From NCBI GenBank assembly GCA_964036665.1, contig OZ038526.1:37014001-37078000 (forward strand): a DNA stretch of 64,000 bases, written 5' to 3'. Made by a program: the position numbers and the translations under genes. Source of the DNA: Gordius sp. MW1 (taxonomy: Eukaryota > Nematomorpha > Gordioida > Gordea > Gordiidae). Positions 31,841-61,857 of this stretch are shown here, one piece after another. The stretch's first letter is position 1; every line of letters starts with the position of its first letter. Under the pieces are notes generated by a model. It ran no database searches. It was not told the origin of the DNA and worked only from the letters and a program-made list of their open reading frames with translations.

Positions 31841-33085
31841 CTCGGGCCTTCGCCCCTCGTGGGAAGGGGGAGGGGAGAAGGGAAGGGAAGGGGGGAAGGG
31901 AAGGGGGGACGACTCATCTATACTTCGTATAAATGTATCATATTTGCTATGCAATTTATGGGCGAGAAAGGTGGGAAGGGGCGAGAATGCTTATAGGGGG
32001 GTATTCAATGCCTAATGATTAATTAATTATTAATTTTTATGCAAATTTTCCATTTATGGGCAAAATTTAATATAGGCAAAATGTAATATAGGCAAGGGTT
32101 AGGGTTAGATTTAGTGTTTGCATCTAGTTGCGTATTACATTAGTTTTTATGGCCTTTAGTGATTATGGGTCTAACAAACATTATATTATAAAACAATGTT
32201 AAGAATTTGCAGAATTGGGAGAAATTTTTTGTTGAATTTGAACAATTTTTAATTAAAAAATCAAAAATTTGGCGAATGGTCATTTTTTCTCCATTGGTCA
32301 GTACCAACAGATACTCTATAAGTCAATGATAGCCAAAAAAACGGAAAAAAAATTTGATGCTCACTTTGGCCAATGGTCATTTTTTTCCATTGGTCAGCAG
32401 CCAGCACACGGTAAAAATGGATATAAATTCATAAGAGTAAAAAAAAAACGAAAAAAAAATTTTCAAATCACATTTTGGCCAATGGTCATTTTTCCATTGG
32501 TCACCAGCCAGGACACGGTACAAGTGGATATAAATTCATAAGAGTAGAAAAAAACGAAAAAATAAACTTGGATTCACATTTTGGCCAATGGTCATTTTTT
32601 TTCATTGGTCAGCACCCAACGGACGGCCAAAAAGTCATAATAGCAGTGGTAGTAACAGGAACAATCATAATAGTCAAAAAAAAACCGGGATTCGAACCCA
32701 AAAACTAGTTAAATTAACAAAAATTAAAAGTAAACAAAATAAGACATTCGGTGCACACTCGGTGCGTGACCGAACAGCGTGACAAAACAAATTGGAAAGT
32801 GAGCCCATAAATTGCATAGCAATTAAAAATTAATAAAATGAAACAATAATAGAACAAGCGGACGACCAAAAAGTCATATTATCAATGGGGCACCTCTTAT
32901 GCATTAATTTAAAAAATAACACAGCGAGGGAGATAGAGATGAGGGGTGGGGCACCTCTTTCTTATGCATTAATTTAAAAAATCGATAACCTAATATACCC
33001 AATGCAAACTAATAACAAACAGCGTGACAAACAGCGGGACAAACAAAAGCAAAAGCGAGCCCATAAATTGCATAGCAATTAATTA
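31841..33085. mobile_element. Composite CCAAT-hairpin repeat element, copy A
   Basis: Starts at CTCGGGCCTTCG(C/G)CCCTCG, a small GC hairpin, then a purine-rich GGGAAGGGGG block, then TTTGCTATGCAATTTATGGG (31945-31966), which is the inverse of the terminal module. The centre is a tandem array. The right side ends in GAGCCCATAAATTGCATAG at about 32800 and again at 33056. No transposase is present. The layout (inverted subterminal module, central tandem array, terminal hairpin) resembles Helentron-associated (DINE-1/HINE-like) elements, but the assignment is inference. Confidence 0.6.
32262..32650 (+). repeat. Tandem array of CCAAT/ATTGG hairpin units
   Basis: Units of about 106-109 bases start at 32270, 32368, 32477 and 32583. 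Each has GGCCAATGGTCATTTTTT followed by CCATTGGTCAG, so CCAATGG and CCATTGG form a 7-bp hairpin, and a spacer such as CAGCGGACGGCCAAAAAGTC. Short open frames here are by-products of the repeat period. Confidence 0.8.
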
Positions 33086-33974
33086 TGGTTGTGTTAAGAG
33101 TAGAACTCTTAAGTTGTGTATAATTTAAGCATTGATATTTAATATTAATCTTTTACACATTTTAAAAAAATTTTAATATTCCCATTTTATTGTATCAATT
33201 ACATATTGTTTTTTTAAAAGTTATTTGTTAAACAAAGCTTGAAATAACATATTAAGGCCAAATTTTATTTACAAATTTTGCATAGGACATTATTGAATTT
33301 TTATATCATATCTATCAAGCAAAAAGAAACAACAATTTGGCAAATTTTAAACCATCTGATAAAATATACCTTTAGGAGGCCAAAAATGGTTTTGGGAGCT
33401 TGATTTTATTTATCTTCATTAGGGGATGGTTCAATAAATTTAAATTTAATTATCTAATCGATATGGGCGCACACATATATCATATATTTTCATTATACTA
33501 ACTTTAATTAAATAATTTATGAGAAAAATATTGATTTTGCATTATTTATGCCTTCTCCAACTTTGTAATACAATTTCGATTAATGCAAAAGCCCCTAACG
33601 GTTAATTATTTTCTGTAGTATACTATTAAATTACTGCGTGAGTTAGCGAGACTGACCATACGACTAGAGTTTTATTGAATGAGCATTAGAATAAGAGTGG
33701 AACGCGTAAAAAATGGAAAACCTCTGGACACAATAATCATACACTATACATATAAAGGTTTTTTAGGCGTCTCAGCCGTTGATGCATCGTAGGATGAAGC
33801 ATAATTAAGGTCGGTCGCGTCACAATATGCTCCAGACTAAGTTCCATATGTTCCAGATTCTGATCCATAAGTTCCTTCAGTTCCGTAGGTGCCCTCAGTC
33901 TCATAAGCTCCGCATTCTGTACCGTAAGTGTCTTCAGTTCCATATGTTCCTGATTCAGTTCCGTATGTTCTTTC

Positions 33975-34687
33975 CAGTTGCGTACGCAAGGGGGCTGTTT
34001 TGAGGTTCAACCCCCCCCCCCGCGGATTTCGGAAAAAATATTTTTCATTTTCTAATATCGCATTATATAACAAATATTATGAAATAAGTGTTACTTAATT
34101 AACTATGAGCACTTTTATTCAACAACCATTAAGTATTTTTACGCGTTAATGTATCAGAATTTTCCTTGTGGTTATAAAACGTAAGCATTTCATATGATTT
34201 CCTCGATCAATTTGAATAGAAAAAGGCACAATATTTAAATTTTGTGTCAAAAAAGTTAATCATGTTGAACAAGAGCCTGCTGCTGGTAAGATTTTAAAAT
34301 GATTATAGTTAGATAATTATTTTAGATTTAGTTCATGTGGAACAAGGATCTGCTGTTTAAAATCTTAATTTGGCTGGACAGACTCACATGGATGCTACTA
34401 TCCATGGGCGTAGCCAGATTTTGAATTAGGGGACGGGGCGAAACGTTTAAAAGTTTAATTAGGGGGGGGGGGACAAAACATATTTTTTTTTAATTTTTAA
34501 GGGTATTTGCATTGAACATTTTTTTGTCATTTAGGGGGGGGGGGGGCCTGGCTACGCCCATGTATAGATCATTAATCAAATTGGATTAAAAAAATATCTT
34601 ATAGGTTTTTTTCGATATTCGAAGCAAAAATTTGAAACCCCCCCCCCCAAAAAAAAAATATATAAAATAAAATCCCGTACGCCCCTG
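33975..34687. mobile_element. hAT-like MITE inserted in the Tyr/Gly-repeat frame, with nested MITE
   Basis: Ends CAGTTGCGTACGCAAGG and GTACGCCCCTG, flanked by GTTCTTTC at 33967-33974 and 34688-34695 (exact 8-bp duplication). Another element, ends CATGGGCGTAGCCAG and CTGGCTACGCCCATG, sits inside it at 34403-34562. Confidence 0.85.
34403..34562. mobile_element. Nested CATGGGCG-family MITE
   Basis: Perfect 15-bp inverted ends inside the 33975-34687 element. Flanks CTACTATC and TATAGATC do not match well. Confidence 0.8.
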
Positions 34688-34839
34688 GTTCTTTCTGTCC
34701 CATAAGTCCCTGAATCAGCTCCGTATGTAAGGCTCCATAATCCCCATAAGAACTGGCATATATTATTAAGTAAATAAGGATGCATGTATGTTGTTGATAT
34801 GGAAGAAATGAATGATATAAACGATGCCGGTATGTAAAG

Positions 34840-35033
34840 TAGTGTTGTAAAAAGGGCTGGGTTTTGTTTGACCTTTGGTTTTAGTCAACTAGACATAAAG
34901 AGATCAAAGGTTTTTTCGTCAGCAGTTTTTTGTGGACCTTTAGGTTTAGTTGAATTAGAAAAAAAGACGAGAGTCGATCGTTAATCTTAGTTAAACCAAT
35001 GGTCGACCAAACAAAACCCAGCTGTTTTTGCAA
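34840..35033. mobile_element. TAGTGTTG-family MITE with target duplication
   Basis: Ends TAGTGTTGTAAAAAGGGCTG and CAGCTGTTTTTGCAACAATA. The word ATGTAAAG precedes the left end and follows the right end, giving an 8-bp duplication and placing this family with hAT-like elements. Confidence 0.8.
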
Positions 35034-38160: not shown

Positions 38161-38960
38161 TTTTCTCATTATTTTGTGGTCCGTCTCCTAATTTTAGACC
38201 CAATTGTTTTCGTAAACGCAACCCAAAAGATTCTCATGTTTTTTCCACGAGAGCGAGACAGAAACATCTTCTTCTCCCCTTCCCCCTCCCCCTTCCCACG
38301 AGGGCCGAAGGCCCGAGTTTGTTTTCTGGTTCGTTCTTTGAATTGGTCTTCTCAAAAAACATTGAATCGCACTTTACCATCGATCTTGCTAGGGGGTCTT
38401 GCCAGTGTATCTGAGCGTCGTTGGGTTCGGGATACACTACCCAATTGTTTTCGTAAACGCAACCCAAAAGATTCCCATGTTTTTTCCACGAGAGCGAGAC
38501 AGAAACATCTTCACCACTCTAAGTCGTTCAGGCCGCTTCTCCATAAGAGCTGCTAGCCTCTCGACCCAAAGCGTAGTATATTTCCGATAAATTATTAATT
38601 TGTCACAGGCGTATCTCGCATAAAATGCAACTCCGCCTACCATAATCACCTGGGACCTATGAACTCTATAACAACTTGGACCTGACAACGATGGTATTAC
38701 CTCTCATTATAACACATGCGACAATTCGGTGCTAACCACAAAATGTAACTAAATCATGGGCAATTTGCCCACCCAGGAAACTCGACCTCATCAAACCTAA
38801 TTAAAGGTGATACGGCATTAAGCCTCCGAATTAATTAAACGCGTCCGTAGAGCCGCACCCGTAGACGCCGCACCCGTAGGCGCCACACCAGAAGGTGTAC
38901 CGACGCTTAGCGTCGCAAATGGTCTCAGGTTTAAATCAAAGGAGGAAAAACGGATTAACT
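38160..38960. other. GC-richer island with a long direct repeat and short gene-like frames
   Basis: A block of about 75 bases (ACCCAATTGTTTTCGTAAAC ... GACAGAAACATCTTC) occurs at 38198-38272 and again at 38440-38514. Minus-strand frames read VYPEPNDAQIHWQDPLARSM (near 38430) and VGGVAFYARYACDKLIIYRK (near 38620). I recognise no family. A GAGGGCCGAAGGCCCGAG hairpin at 38298-38316 is the start of the composite repeat in reverse orientation. 38850-38900 has GCACCCGTAGRCGCC repeats. Confidence 0.4.
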
Positions 38961-39378
38961 TTAATTGAGAAGAATAATTAACCTACTAAATTACTAAAAA
39001 ATACTTTATTTATTCTACCAAATGCATTAATCACATATTGGTACTTACTTATAATATTCCGAAGTAATTGAATAATTGAAAAAAGATACACTTCGATTAT
39101 TAATTAATACTCGGGCCTTCGACCCTCGTGGGAAGGGGGAGAAGGGAAGGGGAAGAGGAGGGGGGAAGGGGAGGAGGGGAAGGGAAGGAGCATCTATACT
39201 CCGTATAAACGTAGCATATTTGCTGTGCAATTTATGGGCGCGAAAGGTGGGAAGGGGCGAGAATGCCCATAGGGGGGTATTAAATGCAAAATTATTAGTT
39301 AATTATTAATTTATACAAATATTTAAAAAGTTAAATGGTATTAACAAGAACAACATATTTTAAAAAATAAAAAAATTA

Positions 39379-39478
39379 GCCCTCGCCGGGATTCGAACCC
39401 ACATCAGTAGAGGCATAGGCTTTTGTAGGGGCACAGGGACCCATATCAGTAGAGGCGTAGACTCTTTTAGGAAAGGGC
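39379..39478 (-). repeat. tRNA-like B-box module, copy 1
   Basis: On the minus strand about 100 bases begin GCCCTTTCC and end GGGTTCGAATCCCGGCGAGGGC... The ends can pair as an acceptor-like stem, and GGGTTCGAATCCC is a consensus T-arm and RNA polymerase III B box. The part between is an internal duplication (GCCTATGCCTCTACTGAT word twice). No tRNA D-arm or anticodon arm is evident. Confidence 0.6.
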
Positions 39479-39660
39479 ATAGGGTAATTATCAATGTTAA
39501 CCTAATATACCCAATTCAAAAACGAAAAAACAAAATTTCGATTTATTTGGCCAATGGTCATTTTTTCATTGGTCAGTAGCCAGCGGACGGTCAAAATTCA
39601 TATAATGGTATTAACAAAAACAAATATTAATTTAATTTAAAAAAAAAATTAAAAAAAATT

Positions 39661-39728
39661 CGTCCTCTCCTGGGATTGAACACGAGCCTACAAGACACAA
39701 GCCGTGCGCTATACCCACTCACACCCTG
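39661..39728 (-). repeat. tRNA-derived SINE head or pseudo-tRNA
   Basis: Minus strand reads GTGTGAGTGGGTATAGCGCA (A-box/D-arm-like), then GTGTTCAATCCCAGGAG (B-box/T-arm-like) 30-40 bases on, the spacing of a tRNA promoter. The acceptor ends do not pair, so it is not a functional tRNA gene. Similar stretches at about 39920-39980, 41868-41925 and 43350-43412. Confidence 0.5.
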
Positions 39729-40030
39729 CTGGTATTAAAATGGTAGAAGTTTTTATGTTATTTATATAGATAATGAAATAATAAAGTTGTGTTTTATGTT
39801 TAAAAAATCAATATATTTCATCGGTCAGTAGCCAGCGGACGGTCAAAATGTCATATTATCAATGGAATTAACAAGAACAAAATATTAATTTAATTAAAAA
39901 AAAAATAAAAAAATTCGTCCTCTCCTGGGATTGAACTCTAGACCTCCAGATCACAAAGCTGGCGCCATAACTTGGTGGACAGACAACGGACGGACAACAA
40001 AAAACGAGCCCATAAATTGCATAGCAATTA

Positions 40031-42300
40031 AAATATGAAACATTTATGAACTTTAAAATATTATTTAGGGAATACCTGAGTGAAAAAAATTGTTAAGATT
40101 TAAAAAATCGAACCCTAAAATCTCTCATTTTATACAGTTAATGGGTTTTAAACATTATTAGATAAATTTTATGTTTAAACGCTTAAAGCTGTCAAAATTC
40201 ACTTACAGAAAGCGTTTGTTAAAAGAGTGATTTAAAGAGTCTTTTATATTTCTACTAGTTTTTTACACAAATTTATATAGTAAAGTTAATTATAAATAGA
40301 GGCATAGGCCCTTAGTCATTATATATGAAAGACCCTAAAGGCAAGGTCGGCAGAATGATAGATTCAATTGTTGCCAGTCATATGGTGGTGTATAAAATAG
40401 ATTCATCGATTAATTTCAAGCCCAAATCGCAATTTGACTTATGAATAGATATTGGGAAGAGTAGGGGGGGGGGAATATCAATAATGCCAAGTCAGTGGTG
40501 GGCTTATAAGAGGGTAGGAGGTAGGGTAAAGCAAATGTCTTTTACGTGCTATATATATCACTATCCCGTTATATTTTAATCGATCCTGACAAGAAAGTAG
40601 GGAAAAAATTTATCATGCAATGCAAGGATGCGCAAATGTTTTTAATAGATATTGAGCTTTCACATTTAATATAAAATTTAACCAAAACATTTTAATAAGA
40701 GTTGCTCTCTCTTTATTCATATTAGGTGGTTTGTTATTACCAACTAAGCAGTATTTTCATTTATATTCTGCCCCTACTTTTAATTATATCTCAGATTAGA
40801 CGCGAAATATTTTTGTATCTGATTAGTAATTCTATGTTATGGATAGAGCGATATTTTGGTCATCCTATTTAATCACGACAATTCAAGGCCAAATTTTAAA
40901 TTGTAAAAATAAAAACAATAATAAAAATTAAAAGCTGCAGTTTTTATTATCGATAACTGGTTTTCATAACATGCAAAAAAATTTAATGTTGATTTTAATG
41001 AGTTTTTAAGGCAGTATTTAAAACCCGAATTTGTCCATAAATCATGCATTGACGGTGAGCAGTTAATTAGATTTTTGGTGTAAAAAAAATTAATTTTATT
41101 AGAAAGTTTTTTTATAAAATATAAAAATGTGGTGTTCACCCATATTCTAATTCTTCCCCCCCCCCATGCATGCTACGATTTAAATTATATGCATTTTTAT
41201 TTTACCCTACGCTCGATCTTAATTGCGTCAGATTTACTTTACACGTAGTCATCAGTGTTGCCACTGCGCTAAAAATAGATTGTTTATACCACTTCGCTTT
41301 TTATTTCCATCGCGATCGCATATACATATTATTATCACCATGATTTAGAAAATATATTTTTAGATTACCTAACTACGTTGATTATTAATTAATTTAATAT
41401 AATTCTTTTTTCCCTCGTTGTAACCAAATAAATAAATTGAAAAAAGATGTAATATTAAAGGCGAAAGCAAATTCAAAAAAATCCTTTTGAGGATTTTCGC
41501 GCGCGGATATATTTCTTAGAATTATAATACGTCCATATGGAATATATTAATTGGAATTCTAAATAAATTAGTGGAGATGGAAATAAGAGTTGCGGCAGCA
41601 AACTCGATAATTAAATTATTCGAAAACTAGATTATTCAATAAACACAAGCAAAATTCTATACCAATACTTTCTTCGGTATAGAATAAAAAATTTTACAAA
41701 ATTCAAAATATTCTTTACGTAATACCCGAGTGAAAAAAAATGTTAAGATATATAAAATCTTTCATTTTATACAGTTAATGGGTTTTAGACAATTTTAGAT
41801 AAATTTTATGCTTCAACGCTGAAAGCTGTCAAAATCCAATTACAGAAGGCGTTTAATAATTCGAACTCGTTGCCTTCTGTTTACAAGACGTTCGCTATAA
41901 CCAATCACACCTTGCTGGTATTATAAAAAGCAACTTATTATTTATAGTGAAAATAATTTTTTGAATGGTAGAAGTTTTTATGTTATTTAAATAGATAATG
42001 AAATAATAAAGTTGTGTTTTATGTTTATTATATAATAAAATGAAACAATAATAGAAAATATATATTATAGATAATTTAACAAATATAAATTATTATGTAA
42101 AAAATAGGGGGACGCAAAAAAATTATAAAATATTTGGGGGGCCGCGCATATAAAAAGGTTAAGAACCACTGATTTAAAATACTTCAGCAATGGGCGTTTT
42201 TTGATCATCCAATAAATAACTAATTAGTAAATCAATTCAAGAATTTGTTTCAGTATTTTATAATAATAATTTTGAGAGGAGCATTTCGAAATTGTAGCCT
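40031..42300. other. AT-rich DNA
   Basis: Two related stretches (about 40070-40230 and 41710-41850, sharing GAATACCTGAGTGAAAAAAA-like and CATTTTATACAGTTAATGGG) show a local duplication of about 150 bases. A tRNA-like remnant is at 41868-41925. No coding exon. Confidence 0.4.
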
Positions 42301-42742
42301 TTACCTAAAAACAATTGGGCCAATGGTCATTTTTTTTATTGGTCAGTAAAAAGAGACGGTCTATAAATACATACGAGCCAAAAAAAACGAAAAAAAAATT
42401 TCGAATCACAATTTGGCCAATGGTCATTTTTTTCCATTAGTCAGTACCCAGAGACGGTCTATAAATACATACGAGTCAAAAAAAACGTAGAAAATATTTT
42501 GAATCACAATGTGGCGAATGGTCATTTTTTCCATTGGTCAGTAGCCAGCGGATGGCCAAAAGCCATATTATCAATGGTTTTAACAAAAACAATATATTAA
42601 TTAAAAAAAATTTTTTTTTGACAATATGGCCAATGGTGATGTTTTTTATTGGTCAGAAGCCAGCGGACGACCAAAAAGTCATATTATCAATGGTATTAAC
42701 AGGAACAATATATTAATTTAATTAAAAAAAAATAAAAACTTT

Positions 42743-42842
42743 GCCCTCTCTGGGATTCGAACCCACATCAGTAGAGGCATAGGCTTTTGCAGGGGCACAG
42801 GGACCCATAATAATAGAGGCATAGGCCCTTCTAGGGGAGGGC
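42743..42842 (-). repeat. tRNA-like B-box module, copy 2
   Basis: Minus strand starts GCCCTCCCC and ends GGGTTCGAATCCCAGAGAGGGC... GCCCTC pairs with GAGGGC, as in copy 1 where the bases differ. Confidence 0.6.
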
Positions 42843-43063
42843 ACAGGGTAATTATCAATGTTAACCTAATATAACTATTTATTAAAAACGAAAAAAAAGG
42901 TTCGATTTATACTTTGGCCAATGGTCATTTTTTCATTGGCCAGTAGCCAGCGGAAGGTCAAAAAGTCATATTATTATTGGTATTAACAAGAACAATATAT
43001 TAATTTAATTAAAAAAAAAAAAAATTTTGCCCTCTCCAAAATTCGAACCAGCAATTAAGAATT

Positions 43064-43161
43064 TGCCCTCGCCGGGATTCGAACCCACATCAGTAAAGGC
43101 ATAGGCTTTTGTAGGGGCACAGGGACACATATCAGTAGAATAGGCCCTTGTAGGGGAGGGC
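43064..43161 (-). repeat. tRNA-like B-box module, copy 3
   Basis: About 98 bases. Minus strand starts GCCCTCCCCTACAAGGG and ends in the B box GGGTTCGAATCC and GGCGAGGGC. Confidence 0.6.
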
Positions 43162-44146
43162 ATAGGGTAATTATCAATGTTAACCTAATATACCCAATTC
43201 AAAAACGAAAAAATAAAATTTCGATTTATTTGGCCAATGGTCATTTTTTCATGGGTCAGTAGCCAGCGGACGGTCAAAAATTCATATTATCAATGGTATT
43301 AACAAGAATAAAATATTAATTTAATTTAAAAAAAAAGATAAAAAAAATTTTCCTCTCCTGGGATTGAACACGAACCTCCAGGTCAGAAGTCTGGGGCAAA
43401 TAACTTGGTGGACGACGGACGGACGGATGGACAACAAAAAACGAGCCCATAAATTGCAGAGCAATTAATACGCGTTGTCCCCTCTCTCATATCTATCTCC
43501 CCCTCGCTTTGTGATACGCGCATTAATATCAACACGCGTAGTCCCCCCCCCCACCTCTCTCTCTACGCTATGTATACTTGTAATACGAGTGCCAGCTGCG
43601 CTGGCAAGGCAGTCACCTCGAAGGAGCGTATTGCAAATTAATCGTTCTTTGTTCTTAGTAGAATGAGATATACAACAAATAGAATTTCGTTGTTTATAAA
43701 ATATTAGAATTCACCAGCTAGATAAATCAATTGTAAATTCAAAGAAACTCGGGCCTTCGGCCCTCGTGGGAAGGGGGAGGGCAGAAGGGAAGGGGGCAAG
43801 GGAAGGGGGGACGACTCATCTATACTTCGTATAAATGTATCATATTTGCTATGCAATTTATGGACGAGAAAGGTGGCAAGGGGCGAGAATGCCTATAGGG
43901 GGGTATTAAATGCCTAATGATTAATTAATTATTTATACAAATTTTCCATTTATAGGCAAAATGTAATATAGGCAAGGGTTAGGGTTAGATTTAGTGTTTG
44001 CATCTAGTTGCGTATTACATTAGTTTTTACGGCCTTTAGGTCTAACAAACATTATATTATAAAACATCACAATGGTAAGAATTTGCAGAATTGTTGGGAG
44101 AAATTTTTTGTTGAATTTGAACAATTTTTAATTAAAAAAATCAAAA

Positions 44147-44790
44147 ATTTGGCGAATGGTCATTTTTTCTCCATTGGTCAGTACCAACAGATACTCTATA
44201 AGTCAATGATAGCCAAAAAAACGGAAAAAAAATTGATGCTCACTTTGGCCAATGGTCATTTTTTTCCATTGGTCAGCAGCCAGCACACGGTAAAAATGGA
44301 TATAAATTCATAAGAGTAAAAAAAACGAAAAAAAATTTTCGAATCACATTTTGGCCAATGGTTATTTTTTTCCATTGGTCAGCAGCCAGGACATGGTAAA
44401 AGTGGATATAAATTCATAACAGTCAAAAAAAAACGAAAAAAAAATTTCGAATCACATTTTGGCCAATGATCATTTTATTCCATTGGTCAGCAGCCAGCGG
44501 ACGGCCAAAGAGTCATAATAGCAATGGTAGGAACAGGAACAATCATAATCGTCAAAAAAAAATGAAAAAAATAATTTCGATTCACATTTTGGCCAATGGT
44601 CATTTTTTCCATCGGTCAGGAGCCAGCGGACGGCCAAAAAGTCATAATAGCAATGGTAGTAACAGGAACAATCATAATAGTCAAAAAAACGAAAAAACAC
44701 ATTCGGATTCACATTTTGGCCAAGGGTCATTTTTTTCATTGGTCAGCAGCCAGCGGACGGCTAAAAAGTCTTATTATCAATGATAGTAAC
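44147..44790 (+). repeat. Tandem array of CCAAT/ATTGG hairpin units
   Basis: Units at about 44153, 44247, 44353, 44461, 44591 and 44718. Period is near 106-108 for the first and near 128 for the last units, which carry an extra AGTAACAGGAACAATCATAA segment. Confidence 0.8.
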
Positions 44791-45003
44791 AAGAACAATC
44801 ATAAGAATCAAAAAAAACTCCGGGATTCTAACCCAAAAACTAGTTAAATTGCATAGCAATTAAAAGTAAACAACTTTTATTTATGTTTATTATATAATAA
44901 AATGAAACAATAATAGAACAAGCGGATGGCCAAAAAGTCATATTATCAATGGTAGTAACAGGAAAAATATATTAATTTAATTTAAAAAATAAAAAAAAAA
45001 TTT

Positions 45004-45135
45004 GCCCTCTCCGGGAATCGAACCAGCAATTCAGAACGTTCGCCGGGGTTCGAACCCACATTAATAGAGGCATAGGCTTTTGTAGGGGCACAGGGACCCA
45101 TATCAGTAGAGGCATAGGCCCTTGTAGTGGAGGGC
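45004..45135 (-). repeat. tRNA-like B-box module, copy 4
   Basis: Same pairing ends (GCCCTCCAC ... GAGGGC) with two B-box-like words, GGTTCGATTCCC and GGGTTCGAACCCC, because of an internal insertion. Confidence 0.55.
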
Positions 45136-45300
45136 ATAGGGTAATTATAGCAATTAATATCAATGTTACCCAATTCAAAATCGAATAGATATACTTGTGC
45201 ATTAATTTAACATAGCAATTAAAACCCGAGAGATGTGGAGTGGGGCACCTCTTTCTCATGCATTAATTTAAAAAATCGATAACCTAATATACCCAATGCA

Positions 45301-45395
45301 AATAGATAGGGACGGACGGACGGATGGACGGACAACGGACGGACGGACACGGACGGACGGACGGACACGGACGGACGGACGGACACGGACGGACA
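45301..45395 (+). repeat. GGAC minisatellite
   Basis: GGACGGACGGAC runs broken by ACACGGAC and ATGGAC. It sits just before the terminal module, as at 2150 and 43413. Confidence 0.85.
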
Positions 45396-45430
45396 ACAAA
45401 AAACGAGCCCATAAATTGCATAGCAATTAA

Positions 45431-46385
45431 TAATAGTAACGCAACCTAAATAATAATAGTAATTTGTAATTCTCTTGTGTGTCATCTAATTAATTATCTA
45501 TTGTTTGCATTTATCAACTTCTAAATTAATCCAAATGACGAAAGGAACGCAAATAGAGGGTATGACCTTGGAAAAGCCAATAGTCATCCTTCCAAAACGT
45601 ATAACTTTCAATTTAGAGTTTTTTTGATAGTGTATAAATCAGAGACCAGATTGCCCGGCCCGCTGCCCAAACATGCCCGGCCCGCCGGGCAACTGTCTTA
45701 AAATATATTTTCTGGCGAGCACGGTAATAGGATTTGGGCAATTCGGGCTTAATAAAAAATTTTTCCCCCGAACCACTCTATATCCATCAAGTCCCTATCC
45801 CTAGCTACGTTCATGGAAAGGATTTAAATATTTTCTTTGTTTGTAGTTTAAATGTGCCGTCTATAGTATACATAATACAAAAGCGTCATACACAAATTGA
45901 CACAATGCATGCAAGTGTTAACATTTAAACTCTATTGATAAATTATTGTTTTTTATCAAAAAAGTAAGCTCTAAGAGCACAGATTGACTAATTGAACTAA
46001 TTTTATTCATTAAGAAGTTAATTCATAGGGTAGGGGCTTTAACGGGTTAACCCAAAAGGGGAGTATAATACTATTTATTTTAAGATTATTTATAAATATG
46101 TAAAACTTAATTAAAAAATTTCTATATATATATTTTCAAGGACATCGGGTGCATTTAATTAACATTTTGCTGTTATATAATTTGTAAACGTTCTAAAATG
46201 TTTGTACCTAAATGCGTTAGCAAATTAATATATTAAAGTATTGTGACCTCGAGCGGTTTTGCCAGTGATAACTATAAAGAAACTCTGGCCAAATTTCTTA
46301 GAAAGACCAAATACTACGTGTTTTTGAACCATTAGGATTAAAATTAAAGATCAAAAGTTATATTTGGAAAAATCATTCGATTTTT
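45431..46385. other. AT-rich DNA with a GC-rich fragment
   Basis: 45655-45745 has CCCGGCCCGC words like the GC-rich ends of the 27-kb hAT-like element. No gene recognised. Confidence 0.4.
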
Positions 46386-47640
46386 AAATAATATAGGAAA
46401 TTAGATTATGTCCGGGATAATAAAAAAGGCTGAAACGAGGTGGAAATATCGGCTAATCAATTCGAAATTGTGGCCGGCAAATCCACAATCGACCCAATCT
46501 TCGCCCTAAGACAAATGATGGATAAATATGGTGAAAGAGGAAAGACCGACATATGGTTTTTATGGACTTGGAGAAAGCTTATGACACGGTCCCCCGCGAT
46601 TTAATATGGAGGTGCCTGAGAAAACAAAATATCCCTGACGCATATATACGGCTTATGAAAAATACATATGAAGCCTCAAACTCTTGCGTTAGGACGACAG
46701 TTGGAGACTCTAAACCTTTTCGGGTTAATATTGGATTACATTAAGGCTTTGCTTTAAGTCCCTTTTTATTTAATATAATTGTAGACACGATAACGAGGGA
46801 CATTCAAAAGCCATCGCCATGGTGTATGCTATATGCCGATGATATAGTACTATGGGAGGAAACAAGGGAGAAGTATTCGATAAAGCTGAAAAGTGGTCAA
46901 AGCGCTTAGCTGGATATGGTTTGAAGGTCAAGGATCGAAAATCGGTATACATGGAAATAAACGTTACAGGCACCCCATCACTGGATGACCATCTAAATTA
47001 CCCAAAAGTAGACAGTTTTACATACCTCGGTTCGATGTTACATCAAGAGGGAGGTTGCGCAACGGAAGTCAATGCCCGGATTCAAAATGGATGGCTTAAA
47101 TGGCAAAGTATATCTGGTGTGATGAGCGACAAGAAGATGCCAATATGACTGAAAAGCAAAGCTCTCAAATATCGTAAAACCGGTGTTACTATATGGAAGT
47201 GAAACATGGGCTTGGGCATTAAACACCACGGAAGGAAAGCTATTTCAAGCCACAGAGATGAGAATGAAACGGTGGAGCGTGGGGTATACTAAGCTCGACC
47301 ATATGACGAATGACTTTTTCATGACAAAAATGGGTATTCAACCTATGGCGGACATGATTAACGAAAATCGGCTAAGGTGGTATGGGCATATACTAAGAAG
47401 GGACACGGAAGACGTAAATCGAAAAGTACTGGACATGGAGGTACCGGGGAAGAGAGGAAGAGGACGACCCCGTGTCAAGTGGAAAGGGCAAGTCGATAAA
47501 GTTATGAAAACTAAGGAGATTAGTCAAGACATGGCACTCACTCGGTCAAGATGGAAGAAACTTATCAAAACAAACCCCACGAATGTGGGACAAAATAGTG
47601 ATAACGAAGAAAAAGAAAGTGGAAAAATTTTCAGTTAGGA
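46386..47640 (+). pseudogene. LINE endonuclease/RT copy, RT to C-terminus, broken
   Basis: Reverse transcriptase blocks in order: VAGKSTIDPIFALRQMMDKY (near 46470), MVFMDLEKAYDTVPRDL (motif A, 46553), IGLH[15 protein letters not shown] (motif B, 46735), YADDIVL (motif C, near 46830), YLGSMLHQEGG (47020) and the C-terminal NRLRWYGHILRRD (47370). At least three frameshifts and an in-frame stop. It resembles RTE-type or similar APE LINEs, distinct from the R2-like element. The 5' half including any endonuclease is missing. It ends in an AAGAAAAAGAAAG-rich tail. Confidence 0.88.
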
Positions 47641-48773
47641 TTTGTCCAAAATGCGGGAAAATGGGTTTAAATTTTGGATTTATTGTAAAAATTATTATTT
47701 CTAATGTTAGATGTTGTACTATAAACCTCTAAATTTTCAAAATATTGTGATTGGTTGAGGCATTTCTCATTTCGTACATTTTACACATATTAGGTTTTGC
47801 AAATAATTTTAGATTTTGCCAATATAAGTTTTTGGATAATAAATTTTGAGAGGGCAGCCAAGCCTTCCGCCCCCCCCCTTTGGCTACGCCCATGCCCGCA
47901 GGGTTTAACATTATATCTTGATCTAAAATTATATGGGTGAGCTAAAACGTTTTTACAGGTCGGGTTCGAGGTAAACAAATTTAATAATTGGGGGCAGGTT
48001 AGGCTGAAAAATTATTTTGTAGGACACTGGGGTAGTATGGTGTTGTATGCGCTTTTGACAGTTGAAAGGTAGTGAGTGCTGAGAAAGATTATGCTGAAGG
48101 TGAAAATGATGGGGGAATTTAGTAGAAAGTGTAATTTAAAATCCTAAGTGTCAAAATTATAAAAATTTAAATTATACGCGCATAGCATAACTAAGGATTT
48201 ATGTAAAAGTTAAGATCTCATCACAAAAAGAGAGGAGGTTTAAATCTTATTTCTGAACAAGCATCGAAATTCGAAAAACAGACCAAAGTCGAGGCCTTAT
48301 TTGAACCAAAGGCCGACAAAACAGAACCTAGCCGTTTTTACGATACTAGTACATACTAAATAGTTAGCGTTGTTCAACGGTCTTAGCTTTGCGTAAAGTC
48401 GTACCCTAGTGACGCTCGGTTTCAAATTGCTATTTGGAAGGATTTTAATTTAGTAAAATTGGTTAGAACGCGAAGACTACACTGTTCCTCAAAATTGCAT
48501 ATTTTAGTGTAAGAATCTGTAATAAAGGGATTTATGCCCTTTTAGTGTTTTTTAGAATGTAATTGTTGGATGGTATTGCACCAAAATTACTACATGTGCT
48601 TATTAATTTAGCCTTAAACTGTAAACAGGCCCGTCGAAATCTACTCCCTTATGTTATTATTTAAACCTTCTCTTGACATAAAAATTATTATTTTACTTTT
48701 TTTATTTTTCATAATAGTCATGAATTAATTTGTTTTTTCAAAATATTTATTTTAACTGCCCAGAGATCCTTAG
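47641..48773. other. Non-coding stretch with MITE remnants
   Basis: 47830-47895 is the right end of a CATGGGCG MITE (CTTTGGCTACGCCCATG), and 48290-48352 is the right end of a TAGTGTTG MITE (CCTAGCCGTTTTTACGATACTA). Nothing else recognised. Confidence 0.45.
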
Positions 48774-48986
48774 GTGCGTAAAACGGTGCGGACGGCATTT
48801 TACGAGCGCGCTAAGCTAGACGTAAACCCGACCGGGCCCCAAGCCTTGGAAGAGTTGGAAGATGAAGGTCATCCCATGTACCCCATGAAATATCTGAAAG
48901 GCAAGCCCGTTCGAGACTTGTTGAACGACCAGTTTCTTAAAATAGAAGTAGCGCACTCTGGGCAATTAGTTAACGCGCATCTCGGA
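48774..48986 (+). CDS. Exon of an unrecognised host protein
   Basis: A 71-codon block bounded by an acceptor (CCTTAG at 48768-48773) and a strong donor (GTGAGTG at 48987), phase 0 at both ends. It is clearly more GC-rich than its surroundings and protein-like: VRKTVRTAFYERAKLD, ALEELEDEGHPMYPMKYLKG, then DLLNDQFLKIEVAHSGQLVN. No neighbouring exon was found on this strand within reach, so the rest may lie beyond long introns or this may be a duplicated lone exon. I do not recognise the family. Confidence 0.55.
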
Positions 48987-50742
48987 GTGAGTGAAAAAAT
49001 AATAATAATAAATAAAAATTTGCAATGTATGTCTGATCATATTGAGGCTCGGTTGTTGGGAAAGGAAAATAAATATGGCAAAGCAGCGAATTTCTGACTT
49101 CCACGCCTTTGCCCTTAGCAATGTTGCCATATACATATTTCATAACTGAGTCACAGAGGTGTTAACGTCGCAATAAGTACCGTGAAGGCCCCCCCCACCC
49201 CGAATCACAAAGTGTAAACACGAATTTTTATTACGCTATTTAATTTAATGATATTCATTTGCATAATAAATCTCTACAAAATGCAATTAGACATTTTATT
49301 TCAAAGGTTCGGAGAGTAATAAAACAAATAGTAATTGAGTGAAAAATTAGCATTAAATCTTAAAACTGAGAATTATGTAAAAAACTTAGCAAAAAATAAA
49401 AACTTTGCAATCTAGTTTAAAAAATAGGGAAACAAATTTCTTTGCAATATACTACTTGTAAATATAGTTTAATAGCAATATCGGAATGTTTTCCAAATAT
49501 TTTTAGGACCTACCTTTGTAATGTATTTTAAATTAACCAAACCCCAACATGTTTAGAAAACATATATCATTAATTAAATTGTTATCAATTAATTTGCAAA
49601 TTATTGACCTTTAAAAAACGCTAAAATCGCTGTTTTTGGCTACTTTGACATCAAATTTTTAAAAAATTGATGTATATGGAAAATACTAAAAATATATGTG
49701 TGTTCACCGTAAATAACTCTACCAGAATCTGCAAACAGTTTGCCGGATGGTTTTTCTTGTTGAATAATCTAAACGTAGCAAAGAACATATAAATATTAAT
49801 AATTCATTTCAAATGATTAGTTAAACTTTTAATTAGTTTATAAGATTTCTTTATCTATATTAATTTATTGGGGTGTAGAGAAAGTCAATACTGGACGCTC
49901 GGACGACATTAGCTTGTTGTGACCAGATCAATTTATTTGGATGATAGTACCGCCAATAGGTTCAATATTGTGAAGTGTAAAGATTAAATGTTAGAGATGT
50001 TTTATACTTTGCTTATAATAAACTAACAGAGACGTGTTAGTGAGATGGAAATATTATTCAAAAGCATTACAACTTCCATGTGCTTATAATGCGCATTTAT
50101 TGAAACTTGACCACAAGCTATCATTTACTAAACAAGACAAATAGCCTAGGCGGGACCCGGTCAAAGTAGCAGAAAAGTAGCAGCCATTTGGTCAGTATTG
50201 TAAGCTTCTTTCTCAATATTCAACAATTTTATGTTCTTTATTAATGCGCCGTTTCACAATATATTTTCTAACGATTTTCACCGCACAATTTTATAATGAT
50301 TTTCACCAGCACAATTTTATAATGATTTTCACCAGCACAATTTTATAATGATCAAAAAAGAGGGAGAGTTGTCCCATATTGTGATTCATGACGATATTCA
50401 AATATTACATATAATATTTTGCGTATGACATAAGGTTAACATATATGTTGGGTATCTTCCAATATCTTTCTGGATGAGATTGATTAATGTTGCACGAGTG
50501 TAACGTATATTATATTTCTGGACTTTATATATTGGAAGATTGGTAAGGGGTGCGGTGCATGTGTTATCAAGTAGTATTAGAACAGTTTACCCAAAAATCA
50601 AAGAGCGTGTATGTCACTACGATTAAATGGAATTTTAATATTATGCAGTGCATGTGGCGTGTGTTTGTCAGTAAGAGATAGTTTAAATTCGGCAAAGATT
50701 AAGTTAAAACAGGGATGAGTGTAATTTAACCAAGTTTGGTTT
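48987..50742. other. AT-rich DNA
   Basis: Holds a three-copy tandem repeat of about 26 bases (GATTTTCACCAGCACAATTT) at 50273-50352. No other feature supported. Confidence 0.4.
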
Positions 50743-51495
50743 TTCTTCTTCTTCTTCTTCTTCTTCTTCTTCTTCTTCTTCTTCTTCTTCTTCTTCTTCT
50801 TCTTCTTCTTCTTCTTCTTCTTCTTCTTCTTCTTCTTCTTCTTCTTCTTCTTCTTCTTCTTCTTCTTCTTCTTCTTCTTCTTCTTCTTCTTCTTCTTCTT
50901 CTTCTTCTTCTTCTTCTTCTTCTTCTTCTTCTTCTTCTTCTTCTTCTTCTTCTTCTTCTTCTTCTTCTTCTTCTTCTTCTTCTTCTTCTTCTTCTTCTTC
51001 TTCTTCTTCTTCTTCTTCTTCTTCTTCTTCTTCTTCTTCTTCTTCTTCTTCTTCTTCTTCTTCTTCTTCTTCTTCTTCTTCTTCTTCTTCTTCTTCTTCT
51101 TCTTCTTCTTCTTCTTCTTCTTCTTCTTCTTCTTCTTCTTCTTCTTCTTCTTCTTCTTCTTCTTCTTCTTCTTCTTCTTCTTCTTCTTCTTCTTCTTCTT
51201 CTTCTTCTTCTTCTTCTTCTTCTTCTTCTTCTTCTTCTTCTTCTTCTTCTTCTTCTTCTTCTTCTTCTTCTTCTTCTTCTTCTTCTTCTTCTTCTTCTTC
51301 TTCTTCTTCTTCTTCTTCTTCTTCTTCTTCTTCTTCTTCTTCTTCTTCTTCTTCTTCTTCTTCTTCTTCTTCTTCTTCTTCTTCTTCTTCTTCTTCTTCT
51401 TCTTCTTCTTCTTCTTCTTCTTCTTCTTCTTCTTCTTCTTCTTCTTCTTCTTCTTCTTCTTCTTCTTCTTCTTCTTCTTCTTCTTCTTCTTCTTC
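50743..51495 (+). repeat. Uninterrupted TTC (GAA) trinucleotide array, about 251 units
   Basis: 753 bases of pure TTC with no interruption visible. Translated frames of poly-Leu and poly-Lys across it are artefacts. It is followed by internal sequence of a TAGTGTTG MITE (ACCAAAAAATCTTTGGTCTG-like). Confidence 0.95.
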
Positions 51496-51581
51496 ACCAA
51501 GACCAAAAAATCTTTGGTCTGTTTATGCGACTAATCGACTGAAAAAGCTATGGTTTGTTTATGTTTAGACGACTAAAACCA
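51496..51581. mobile_element. Internal fragment of a TAGTGTTG MITE
   Basis: Carries the family's TTTGGTCTGTTTATG, CGACTAATCGACTG and ATGTTTAGACGACTAAAACC. Both termini are missing. It joins the TTC array to the Dicer fragment. Confidence 0.65.
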
Positions 51582-51582
51582 C

Positions 51583-51748
51583 GCAAATTCGTGCCACTAT
51601 CCATAAAAATAGCGCCGGCCACCGATTCAAATATATCACCAAGCACTTTGGGAACCTCGACGGCGTGATAATGTTCATCATCTTTTTCGTCCACTTTTTC
51701 TAAGTTCCACAGCAAGAGCTTCAAGTATAAATGTATCTTAAAAGACAT
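51583..51748 (-). pseudogene. DICER: Dicer RNase IIIb exon fragment
   Basis: Minus-strand translation reads [20 protein letters not shown] and continues as [19 protein letters not shown]. The [17 protein letters not shown].(L/M)DSG block is the second RNase III domain of animal Dicer, including the acidic GD.FE residues that hold catalytic metal. A possible acceptor (ACTTAG) precedes EKVDE. After DSGTNL the similarity stops at MITE sequence, and no further Dicer exon is visible downstream on this strand. It may be a real exon whose donor was rewritten by an insertion, or a captured or duplicated piece. Residues are intact but a working gene cannot be shown here. Confidence 0.75.
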
Positions 51749-51761
51749 ATTTATAAAAAAA

Positions 51762-52110
51762 CTCGGGCCTTCGGCCCTTGTGGGAAGGGGAGAAGGAAAG
51801 GGGATGGGAAGGAGGGGAAGGGAAGGGGGGACGACTCATCTATACTCCGTATAAATGTATCATATTTGCTATGCAATTTATGGGCGAGAAAGGTGGGAAG
51901 GAGCGAGAATGCTTATAGGGGGTACTAAATGCCTAATGATAATTAATTATTTATACAAATTTTCCATTTAATTAAAAAAAATTGCCCTCTCCGGGATTCG
52001 AACCCACATCAGTAGAGGCAGCCTTTGTAGGGGCACAGGGAACCATATAAGTAGAGGTATAGGCCTTTGTAGGGGAGGGCATAGAGTAATTATCGTTGTT
52101 AACCAATTGA
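51762..52110. mobile_element. Composite CCAAT-hairpin repeat element, short copy D
   Basis: Starts CTCGGGCCTTCGGCCCTTG with purine block and GCTATGCAATTTATGGGCG, then jumps directly to the tRNA-like module (51983-52080). Hairpin array and terminal module absent, so it is an internal deletion or truncation. Confidence 0.6.
51983..52080 (-). repeat. tRNA-like B-box module, copy 5
   Basis: About 98 bases. Minus strand GCCCTCCCCTACAAAGGCC at the start and GGGTTCGAATCCCGGAG then AGGGC at the end. Confidence 0.6.
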
Positions 52111-54113
52111 ATTATTCAAGGGGAAAAGGCATACTTTGGTTTTTTTAACTAATGGGTGTCAAAGGTTGTTAATATGAGAAAAGCGAAAAACCCTAAAGAA
52201 GAGGAAATTATAAGAAAATGAAATATGAAACGATATTCTTGATAAGTAAAAGTGAGCAAAAGCTATTAATTTTAAGCATTGCTGAAAAAGAACACCTATT
52301 TAGAACCACAAATTTGGACAGAGTCTTAAATATCCACTCTTGTTCCTTCGTTAATAAATAAATCAAAGGTTTTCCATAAAAAAACGAAATATAAAACTTT
52401 CAAATTTGTTTTTGCAAAATCCAACGCTAACATTATTTGTTTAGAGAAATTATATTTCGTAATTGAACATGCATGGTTCTTTCATATAAATGAGATATTT
52501 TTTAACGTGTAAAAATTAAATTACACATTGATAATAAATTCCAGCCTCCCCCCTGCGTAGCCAGGGCATAGGGAGAGGCATAAAGTGGCAGCTGCCCCCC
52601 CCCCTAAATTTAAAAAACATTAATATTTAAAAAAATTATGACTAAAATTTCAAAACATCAATTCGCCCCTCCCTAAATCATTACTGCCCCCCCCCCCCCT
52701 AAATTTAAATCTTGACTACACCCATGAGTAAAACTATCAAAGTTATAAGAAATTGATTTGATTTACAACGAATGAGATGGCAAAAAACAAAAATCAATAT
52801 AGAATTAAAACGATCTCGCACCAACTAAGGGGCAATCATAACAACTGGGGATGTTGTGTGTTAATAAATGGTGATGAAAAGTTTGTGGGAGTTAAAAATA
52901 AGCTTATTTCTAAAAAAATTAAGAAGCACACATTTAATTTAAAAATGTCAGATAAAATACTGAAGAGCTTAAGGACAGTATTAACTTGTGTGCCTTAATC
53001 GTACTAATTTTATCACCTTCTTCAAACTGAGTGGGTATAATGGCAATTATAATGATTTTAAATTACCAAAAAATTAACATCCTTCATTCTATCATTTTCA
53101 AATGCTTTGTGGCGTCTTTCATCCCAACTTTTCCCATCAAAATCACTATTGTTTGCCTTTTCACCCATTTTTTCTTTAAAGCATTAGATTTTTTTTTAAT
53201 TAAATACAAATCGAGTTACATAGAAACAAAGAGAACAAGATAACTAATATTTCTAATAATTTCTATAATTAATAAAGTTAAAATTTATAATAAGAATGGG
53301 AATTTTAAATAAGTAATGACATAAATTTTTAAACAAAAATTAACTCATCTGATATTTAATTTGTGCGTAGCAATTTCTAGAAGAAAATCATCAGAAATAA
53401 ATTAATAAAATATGATTTTTCAAAGAAACAACCCTCCTGCCATAGTTAAAAATAAATCAATCACAATTTATTTTAAGATAATTTTATATCATTTTTTTCA
53501 ATGACTTAAAATTTTTTTAAAGAAAAACGTTAACAAATTAACATGTATATTTAACAATTTTTAACACAAATATAAATTAAAACCGCTATGTTCTTTCATT
53601 AATTAATTAAAATTACCTATTATCAAAGTAATGTGTAAACTGAAGCAATTGTTTATTTGATTTAAAGTATTGAAGTCTAGGGGAAAAGACACGCAAGGGT
53701 AAAAACAATATTATTTTGTAAAAAGAGTTACTTACTTAACTTCTTTAGAATTGCGCGAAAAATTTGAGAATTTCTAAAACAGCCAACAATTTTAATCATT
53801 TTAAATTTACGGAAATTATAAAATTAAGAAAAGATAGTGAGCATATTCCTAAGGACAGGGTATAATTTAAATTATGACATCTGGGGTTATAAAAATTGTC
53901 AAACTAATCGTGCTTGTTGTTTTACGACGTATATCTAGGATGAGACAGCAACACAGTGATCGGTAGAAATAGATGGATGGAAGGAAAAGTGCTTTTATAG
54001 CTTCTTATTCTTAAAAATAAATAAGTCTTATAATTTACTAGTTCCTTCATATTAATTACTAAGTTTAAGATTATTTTTAAGAGTACCCAGTCCAATTCCG
54101 AATGGAACGAGAA
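52111..54113. other. AT-rich DNA with decayed MITE
   Basis: 52547-52726 is a degenerate CATGGGCG MITE (GCGTAGCCAGGG to GACTACACCCATG). Two small frames (52777-52998 and 53031-53243) show no family signature. Confidence 0.4.
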
Positions 54114-57875: not shown

Positions 57876-57909
57876 GCTATATTAAGGTAAGTATGGCTAG
57901 TAACCATAC

Positions 57910-57992: not shown

Positions 57993-58044
57993 CTAAGATA
58001 TAATAATGGCACAAAGATAAAATAATTATAGATTTAGATTTTAC

Positions 58045-58193: not shown

Positions 58194-58546
58194 CTGTAAA
58201 ATGAAAAGGAAGAGTTTTCAAAGCAAGGAGCATTAAGCCAAATCATGTATTAGTCGCGTCATTATTGAAGTTTAAATCGAAATACTAACGCTCAAGGAAC
58301 TGCTAATATATAAATTTTGTAAAATGTAATGAATAATATAATGTGACGAAGTATCAATACCAATCACCAAATCATTACGTGTCTTATAACAAATAGGTAT
58401 AAAATGCGACATTGATTGTTATGTAATATTGCAAAAAAATATTACAACAAATACATTTTAAATATTAAATACTGTACTGGTTTTTTATAATTACAATTTA
58501 TTTTGAAATATCTTCATTTCATAAGTCTTAATACTATGGTTCTATG

Positions 58547-58699
58547 CATGGGCGTAGCCAGTATTGGAATTAGAGGAGGCAATAATGATTTAGGGAGGGG
58601 CAAAATGATCATTTTTTGAAATACTAGCCATAATTTTAATAAATGTAAACAAAATCATAGATTTAGAAGGGGGCAGGAGCCCCCCTAGCTACGTTCATG
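58547..58699. mobile_element. CATGGGCG-family MITE with target duplication
   Basis: Ends CATGGGCGTAGCCAG and CTAGCTACGTTCATG. Flanks GTTCTATG and GTTCTAAT (two mismatches). Lies just upstream of the first resolved TSSK exon. Confidence 0.78.
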
Positions 58700-60253: not shown

Positions 60254-60316
60254 TCAACGGGGATCGAATGGTTTCACATATTTCTTTTGTCGCGCTCTGG
60301 AATTTTGGAACCATAC
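60254..60316 (-). CDS. Awh: LIM-homeobox gene (Arrowhead/Lhx6/8 type), last coding exon
   Basis: After an acceptor (TTGATATAG) the frame reads VWFQNSRARQKKYVKPFDPR and stops (TGA at 60256-60254). VWFQN.RA..KK is homeodomain recognition helix 3, and SRARQKK is characteristic of Arrowhead, with CRARHKK in vertebrate Lhx6/8. The intron position just before VWFQN is the conserved one in LIM-homeobox genes. The rest of the homeodomain and LIM domains are not in the window. The tail after the homeodomain is only a few residues, shorter than I would expect, so the stop may be bypassed by an alternative donor. DNA-binding regulator, nuclear. Confidence 0.75.
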   Translation of the reverse strand, partial: VWFQNSRARQKKYVKPFDPR

Positions 60317-60734
60317 CTATATCAAAAATAAAAAAATTTTATATAATCCCATAGCTTCTGCTCTCATTTCATTGCAAAAGAATTTTAATTAAATGACATA
60401 ACATTTTGGTCTTCAGAGAAGCAGATGTTGATAGGTAGCATAGTTGTGATTTAATTGTTTTTGTTACTAATTTTATAAATCTTATCTTTAAAAACTTTGC
60501 ATAACAAAGTCCGCGGCAAAGGCTTGGAAAAAGGATGGAATTTAAGCAACAAGACTTACAAATTGAAGACTTTAATTGGAAAAATGGCTTAAATGGAGTT
60601 TAATTTAATTTCGACCAAAATATATTACTTATTACACTTGTTATTTTGTGGTTATATGTTAAAATAAAATGTATAAACTCAATTTTAAGGACATATTTCT
60701 TGCCTGGCATAATTACGATAAAGCCTTTAAAGAT

Positions 60735-61857
60735 GCAATTTATGGGCTCACTTTCCATTTTCCGAAGTAACGCACCGAACGTGTAACGCACCTTCGTGTA
60801 ACGCGCCGAACGTGTAACGAATCTTCATTTAACGCCGAACGTGTAACGCACCGTCATGTCACGCTCTGAGCGCTTATGCCTCTCTAGATATGGTTTTTGC
60901 TAGGGCGTATGTTTAATTGCTATGCAATTTATGATTTTTTTTTAAATTACTATTTAATACCAGTGACGTTTTTTTAGCTTAACATTTTTATATTAATAAA
61001 TTGTTCCTGTTAATACCATTGACATTTATTTAGCCTAACATTGATTGTTTATGTTACTAGCATTAATAAATTGTTCCTGTTAATTTATACCATTGACGTT
61101 TTTTTGGGCTGACATTGATTGTTTATGTCACTACCATTGATAATATTCCGTTTTTTTTGACTCTTATGATTGTTTATGTCACTACCATTGATAATATTCC
61201 GTTTTTTTTGACTCTTATGATTGTTCCTGTTACTACCATTGACAATATGACTTTTTGGCCGTCCGCTGGCTACTGACCAATGAAAAAAAATGACCAGTGT
61301 CCGAAAGTGTGAAGCGAAATTTTTTCCCCGTTTTTTTTTGACTTTTATGATTGTTCCTGTTACTACCATTGATAACATAACTTTTTGGCCATCCATACCA
61401 TTGACATTTATTTAGCCTAACATTGATTGTTTATGTTACTAGCATTAATAAATTGTTCCTGTTAATTTATACCATTGACGTTTTTTTGGGCTGACAATGA
61501 TTGTTTATGTCACTACCATTGATAATATTCCGTTTTTTTGACTCTTATGATTGTTTATGTCACTACCATTGATAATATTCCGTTTTTTTTGACTCTTATG
61601 ATTGTTCCTGTTACTACCATTGATAATATAACTTTTTGGCCGTCCGCTGGCTACTGACCAATGAAAAAAATGACCATTTGGCCAATGTGTGAAGCGAATT
61701 TTTTTTTCCGTTTTTTTTTGACTCTTATGATTGTTCCTGTTACTACCATTGATAATATGACTTTTTGGCCGTCCGCTGGCTACTGACCAATAAAAAAAAT
61801 GACCATTTGGCCAAAGTGTGAAGCGAAATTTTTTTTCCGTTTTTTTTGACTCTTATG
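60735..61857 (-). mobile_element. Composite CCAAT-hairpin repeat element, reverse-oriented copy
   Basis: Starts with the inverted terminal module (ATGCAATTTATGGGCTCAC) and a tandem repeat with CGAACGTGTAACGCACC (60768-60862). It repeats ATTGCTATGCAATTTATG at 60918, then runs into inverted hairpin units (TGACCAATGAAAAAAATGAC) at about 61275, 61655 and 61790. The array is cut at 61857 by a hAT element. Confidence 0.65.

Follow-up and report, generated by a model that had tools for sequence, protein, structure and literature searches.

The window analysed here comprises 64,000 nucleotides of the Gordius sp. MW1 genome (contig OZ038526.1, called C8 below, positions 37014001-37078000), with a G+C content of 32% and set in a surrounding genome of 211.8 Mb in 12 contigs. 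It contains several copies of a repeat that very probably belongs to an abundant, high-copy family of Helentron-associated interspersed elements (HINEs), that is, derivatives of Helentrons that code for no protein and are mobilised in trans by the Rep, helicase and endonuclease of a Helentron. An initial annotation, made from the letters of the window, had described six copies at 31.8, 39.1, 42.3, 43.7, 51.8 and 60.7 kb and a stub at 2.15 kb, with a start AACTCGGGCCTTCGGCCC, a purine block, a CCAAT tandem array and an end GAGCCCATAAATTGCATAGCAATTAA in common. The repeats and these modules are real, while both ends are retained in three copies only, those at 42.3, 51.8 and 60.7 kb being truncated. 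The elements are described here from 5' to 3' on the strand opposite to that of the initial annotation, whose start is the 3' end of the element.

Copies in the window

Both ends are present at 31839-33082, 39109-40031 and 43746-45430, all on the minus strand, and five more pieces are truncated. In the complete copy at 31839-33082, the 5' terminus TTAATTGCTATGCAATTTATGGGCTC with its palindromic subterminal inverted repeat (subTIR) occupies 33057-33082, and a second one lies inside the copy, at 32803-32826. These are followed by the CCAAT/ATTGG tandem array, four units of about 107 bp at 32271-32618, by the 3' subTIR, an inverted copy of the 5' terminus, at 31944-31963, by the adjoining second palindrome TATACTTCGTATA at 31919-31931 and by the 3'-terminal hairpin at 31844-31856, which reads GGGCCTTCGCCCC on the plus strand with one mismatch to the family form. 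The copy at 43746-45430 is likewise complete and carries (GTCC/GGAC)n close to the 5' terminus, and the one at 39109-40031 is diverged and altered in its interior.

Among the truncated pieces, the copy at 42307-43468 (minus strand) has lost its 3' side, and with it the start named in the initial annotation, and carries a duplicated 316-bp unit bearing a B-box-like word. A 3' module lies at 51760-51970 and beyond (minus strand), with no 5' terminus recognised downstream, a 5'-terminal stub with (GGAC)n at 2143-2213 (minus strand) and a 3'-terminal stub of hairpin and pyrimidine tract at 38271-38319 (plus strand). The inverted copy at about 60913-61857 (plus strand) is truncated and diverged and also lacks the annotated start; the low end of its array bears a sequence like the 5' terminus, and a weaker likeness to the terminus occurs at 60728-60747. 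Open frames of at least 110 aa inside the window copies read through the array, and no Helentron or Helitron protein match was found in the window at E 1e-4.

Anatomy of the family

The structure of the family was derived from 24 copies with both ends: 22 of the 28 loci first fetched from the genome (numbered with L; the window copy at 31839 is L001), together with a copy in the canonical Helitron J2 and the other complete window copy, at 43746. Six loci (L002, L003, L005, L006, L008, L010) were excluded because their 5' terminus was not seen in the fetched stretch, and the window copy at 39109 because its 3' end is too diverged for the search pattern. The majority of the sample was drawn from the top matches to one copy, and one duplicated locus (L007/L017) is counted twice. 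The 24 copies measure 1.24-2.39 kb, and two further copies with both ends, outside this sample, measure 3.8 and 4.0 kb.

According to the part of PMC4067079 that deals with their definition, HINEs carry subTIRs of at least 11 bp, the 5' copy a few nucleotides from the end and the 3' copy inverted. The elements described here start with TTA-ATTGCTATGCAAT-TTATGGGCTC (ATTGCTATGCAAT...GGGCTC). This subTIR is palindromic, stands 2-3 nt from the end and is exact in 22 of the 24 copies. Its inverted counterpart, 20 bp long, lies 87-149 bp from the 3' end and is exact in 21, which bears out the inverted terminal module that the initial annotation had placed near its start. The 3' subTIR is followed by the palindrome TATACGAAGTATA (at most one mismatch in 23 of 24; TATACTTCGTATA in the window copy), a pyrimidine tract and the hairpin GGGCCGAAGGCCC, which stands 5 nt from the end, before the final GAGTT. 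As a 3' palindrome it is found within one mismatch in all 24 copies, and in one copy it was folded as a hairpin.

Between the subTIRs lie an optional GTCC microsatellite, an optional spacer bearing a B-box-like word, the CCAAT/ATTGG array and a conserved core of about 300 bp. The (GGAC)n of the initial annotation is present but optional (4 of 24 copies by the criterion applied), and its array of roughly 107-bp units usually has two spacings, of about 108 and 128 bp. The array comprises 4 to 11 CCAAT/ATTGG units, the spacings occurring mostly in blocks, with the 128-bp class absent from one copy. By way of a guess, this array may bind a host CCAAT factor.

Abundance and age

The 26-mer of the 5' terminus, GAGCCCATAAATTGCATAGCAATTAA, has 6,169 exact copies in the genome and the 27-mer of the 3' terminus, CTCGGGCCTTCGGCCCTCGTGGGAAGG, has 3,277, compared with none for either reversed control; the abundance of both termini is far above chance. 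In the first 3.17 Mb of contig C1, the stretch for which both termini were listed, 32 of 53 exact 3' termini have a 5' terminus on the same strand within 3 kb, as against 6 of 53 on the opposite strand, and 33 of 100 exact 5' ends are paired with an exact 3' end (one exact 3' terminus just past the end of the list of 5' termini was omitted). The ends of the 24 copies are common and their flanks different, except at the duplicated locus; the 5' flanks are alike only between L007 and L017, which form that locus, and between L011 and L023 (77%, inverted). The cores diverge from their majority by a mean of 1.1%, a young value that is biased in this direction because most of the copies are the best matches to one copy and were thus chosen by similarity.

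A related terminus, TTAATTGCTATGCAATTTATGCCTTA, occurs twice in L063, at 3072-3097 and 2784-2809, 288 bp apart. With the first 21 nt in common, these termini would constitute a second HINE-like subfamily.

Insertion sites

The search for empty sites, proposed as a check in the initial annotation, found them for six insertions, five of which are resolved, with flanks restored and no target duplication of more than 2 bp. In one such search 17 of the 24 junctions served as queries, and the best 40 matches all came from two of these (L024 and the J2 copy), which makes that search uninformative for the other 15. The empty site is a paralogue for L007/L017 and a related repeat copy for both L011 and L020; in L020 the right side is weakly alike, and in L011 the join is not placed to the base. 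At least 27 matches among the best 40 span the site of L024 (6 read at the join) and at least 13 among the best 40 that of the J2 copy (2 read at the join). For L026, the empty site is provided by a tandem satellite (5 units, 3 read at the join). This satellite, with a unit of about 346 bp, covers roughly positions 1-1900 of that locus and was hit by a HINE, and adjacent units serve as natural empty sites.

The number of A or T residues at the join differs by 1-3 between sites. On the plus strand, an A directly precedes AACTC (position -1) in 21 of the 24 copies and a T directly follows TTAA (position +1) in 21 of 24. The T|T target suggested at the outset is upheld in so far as the site is T-rich; the base pair on the 5' side is mostly A|T. 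Section 6 of PMC4067079 describes T-rich sites, an unmodified target and a variable count of Ts for mite HINEs, and absent duplication, T-rich sites and variable terminal Ts are also seen here.

A Helentron in the same genome

A search of the genome with DUF6570 gave 21 places, one of which (C8:4091010, L062) sits in a frame of 1,767 aa with matches to DUF6570 (68.5 bits), Helitron_like_N (84.7), PIF1 (97.3) and Exo_endo_phos (25.0, with a cut-off of 24.5). Rep motif 2 of this frame reads FKRIEFQHRGSPHAH, as opposed to SVEWQKRGLPHAH in two local Helitron frames, and FKRIEFQHRGSPHAH is the form of motif 2 given for Helentrons in section 7 of PMC4067079. Judged by its predicted domains, the frame is that of a Helentron, combining Rep and PIF1 with a C-terminal endonuclease and a motif 2 with F/Y-x-R and G-S-P.

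Downstream of the frame lie RPA-like exons, with REPA_OB_2 in one frame (42.1 bits) and an OB-fold match below the cut-off in another. Twenty places, among them C1:1360825, C1:3622741 and C2:1550352, share about 180 bp of non-coding DNA from this downstream region, with 92-93% identity and the same ends. Reading a recurring stretch of the region as an RPA exon was rejected, as it is non-coding DNA between RPA-like exons. Parts of the 180-bp stretch and of the DNA next to it are found upstream of the CCAAT array next described. As non-coding pieces from between the RPA-like exons are found there too, a local duplication has occurred.

Link between the Helentron and the HINE family

Upstream of the Helentron frame are two diverged CCAAT units, about 70% identical to HINE units, followed by a unique segment. 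These units score 49 against the best of the 24 HINEs, compared with a maximum of 21 in 60 shuffles against 6 HINEs. In L068 (C1:2684420), an exact HINE 5' terminus leads into a HINE array, 83-89% identical to that of HINE copies, and then into 68 bp of the Helentron segment at 87%, a match that scores 50 where 200 shuffles reach at most 18 and the best score against the 24 HINEs is 11. Likewise, in L049 (C1:2836300-2846299) HINE-class units (85-86%) pass into 106 bp of Helentron upstream DNA, made up of the last array unit and the segment, at 93%. Of 445 candidate places the best 40 were scored, and every one of them spans the junction at which the array passes into the segment; the HINE 5' terminus was read in one of them (L068). 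Three places match the L068 query to its end (C1:2685109, C8:36245237, C4:16125444), and each has non-coding pieces of the DNA downstream of the Helentron frame no more than 1 kb away. DNA from both sides of this frame is therefore present in elements that carry the HINE 5' end and array, as would be expected of deletion derivatives.

The non-autonomous rolling-circle family, Helentron-associated, that the initial annotation had put forward is thus supported by the common ends, the duplication-free empty sites, the HINE anatomy and the array and junction in the DNA upstream of the Helentron frame. The L062-type Helentron is the probable gene-bearing relative or source of the family. We infer that the Helentron lineage found here is the mover of the HINEs, acting in trans and by rolling-circle chemistry. 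From what is established for Helitrons and Helentrons, the HUH Rep would nick the 5' end of the element and the PIF1 helicase would peel off a single strand, the 3' hairpin marking where strand transfer stops, and the single-stranded DNA would then be joined into a T-rich target with no target duplication.

Several observations weigh against this interpretation. Among the loci read, none combined both HINE ends and an intact Rep in one copy, and the Helentron stretch itself contains no exact HINE terminus; the array and segment upstream of its frame could come from a HINE-type element of its own and not be the Helentron's 5' end. A second copy with the same order (L065) is 99% alike and hence too similar to be independent, and the RPA-like exons may belong to a host gene. 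Two junction copies fall within the part of C1 for which exact HINE 3' termini were listed; neither has such a terminus within 14 kb, and their class may accordingly use a different 3' end. Five places on C1 where an exact 3' terminus and an exact 5' terminus stand far apart were considered as autonomous copies, but none gave a match to a Helentron or Helitron protein, Rep included, at E 1e-4: two are the single both-end copies of 3.8 and 4.0 kb, and the others are partial or nested or run past the edge of the fetched stretch. In L067 a HINE 5' half adjoins a DUF6570 frame (59% identical to the L062 frame over 113 aa), which was rejected as partner when its own 5' boundary was found: of 40 scored places of its 5' region, 9 begin at query position 86 and 5 at position 99, where the HINE sequence gives out, so that it is probably an independent element beside that half. 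Over the 24 copies, A|T rather than T|T predominates on the 5' side of the target. Finally, the 3' subTIR lies 87-149 bp from the end as compared with 38-60 bp in the mite HINEs of PMC4067079, where the latter distance, as described, is a trait of the mite set and not a criterion of the family.

The boundary in L067, which reads AATAAAATTTTATCAAG and comes with the palindrome ATAAAATTTTAT, lies at about position 1035 of the reverse strand and is probably the 5' boundary of a further element of the Helentron type. The route through OTU domains (PF02338, 22 matches, several of them near-identical) was also abandoned, the fetched one lying downstream of an integrase-like frame and without HINE termini. 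The OTU-domain frame (positions 4711-5184 of L061, C2:1560500-1570499) belongs to a multi-copy family and, judged by eye, apparently lies in a gypsy-like element.

Canonical Helitrons and other explanations

The genome also contains canonical Helitrons, with at least 150 Helitron_like_N Rep matches above 100 bits (150 scored of 714 candidates). The sampled matches fall into at least three DNA families, two of which have had their 3' end read (J1, J2) and finish with CTAG and then T, on which account these two were rejected as the HINE partner. One such element, at 4975-9297 of L041 (C6:4548734-4553056), has a frame of 1,441 aa with Rep, PIF1 and Pif1_2B, and its family ends with CTAG and then T. 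Canonical Helitrons also lie in L043 and L044, and a second family has a frame of 1,046 aa and the same kind of end.

It is very unlikely that the repeats are a non-autonomous family of these canonical Helitrons, abundant as the latter are. Both kinds of element involve the Rep and PIF1 helicase class and, going by the account in PMC4067079, the absence of target duplication is a property of canonical Helitrons as a class; the mostly A|T base pair on the 5' side would suit them as well. However, PMC4067079 gives their ends as 5' TC and 3' CTRR, to which type the ends of the two local families belong, whereas the repeats start with TTAATTGC, end with GAGTT after a hairpin and carry subTIRs. The Rep motif 2 of the canonical Helitrons is, moreover, of the RGLP type. 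The 20-bp motif, being inverted on both sides, could also be read as the terminal inverted repeat (TIR) of a DNA transposon, in the manner of a miniature inverted-repeat transposable element (MITE). One copy of the motif is terminal but the other is well inside the element, and the resolved sites are without target duplication, which renders this explanation extremely improbable.

Two further explanations concern the interior of the repeats. The initial annotation had seen a tRNA-like module and, as an alternative, a rolling-circle element that gained a short interspersed nuclear element (SINE). The 24 copies do contain 25 B-box-like words, and the module reduces to such a B-box- or T-arm-like word: Rfam at gathering score gave no match in the window or in 20 loci, ARAGORN predicted no tRNA in the window or in the 24 copies, and none of the 25 words has an A-box-like word upstream (shuffled rate 2.6%). 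With Rfam at E up to 10 over window positions 39000-52500, a search in which a weaker tRNA match would be hidden as the tRNA and tmRNA models share a clan, the module had only 13-15-nt matches to the tmRNA model (E 0.65, 2.1, 2.1). A tRNA-derived head with A and B boxes, as expected of a SINE, is not present in these results, and a hybrid with a tRNA-derived SINE is scarcely credible. An ordinary satellite or composite repeat that is dispersed but not itself mobile would account for the tandem array, which makes up a large part of each copy, and for the many truncated copies. For this case the initial annotation had predicted varying ends and no empty sites; instead, the ends are sharp and constant, the flanks differ and empty sites with both boundaries were found, so that a satellite is next to impossible.

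Comparison with known families and implications

The elements resemble the HINEs of the mite Metaseiulus occidentalis and Drosophila DINE-1, as these are described in PMC4067079, in having subTIRs with the 5' copy near the end and the 3' copy inverted, a 3' palindrome, optional tandem repeats and a microsatellite, T-rich unmodified targets with variable terminal Ts and coexisting elements with Rep, helicase and endonuclease; the subTIRs of the mite HINEs are palindromic, as here. They differ in the extra palindrome TATACGAAGTATA, in the 5' side of the target and in the position of the 3' subTIR, which is farther in because of the pyrimidine tract. Crassostrea gigas Cg_HINE and the bivalve Pearl elements, in the portion of PMC7492417 describing them, share a left module with a subTIR, a GTCC-type microsatellite in several elements, a central satellite-like array and a right module with subTIR and palindrome. 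Pearl monomers measure about 160 bp, whereas those found here contain a CCAAT/ATTGG inverted pair and measure about 108 and 128 bp; the comparison is one of layout.

The family is new in the sense that its terminal letters match nothing in the literature searched, a comparison that did not extend to Repbase or Dfam entries. There was no literal match in that literature or in viral contigs, and one full copy gave no match to phages.

A tentative and rather unlikely extension is that the family is modular, one 5' terminus and CCAAT array being joined to at least two right halves, namely the core and hairpin type of the window and a half that has DNA in common with the Helentron neighbourhood. 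Exchange through the array, perhaps aided by a host CCAAT-binding factor, would swap 3' ends, so that one Helentron Rep could drive several chimeric lineages. If true, this would go some way to account for the roughly twofold excess of exact 5' over exact 3' termini. The kind of element is already known and the general picture of transposons is unchanged. The genome, with its large contigs, harbours a HINE family that is abundant and clean, has empty sites and ends that are resolved, and is accompanied by a probable Helentron source. This family could be used to study how Helentrons choose T-rich targets, why satellite-like arrays are found in their passengers and whether 3' ends are exchanged among derivatives.

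Other features of the window

Two features other than the HINE copies stand out in the window. At 9626-12466 on the minus strand, an open frame of 946 aa that matches the reverse transcriptase domain RVT_1 (82 bits) probably belongs to a retrotransposon. A perfect (TTC)251 microsatellite occupies 50743-51495 (753 bp, 100% matches).

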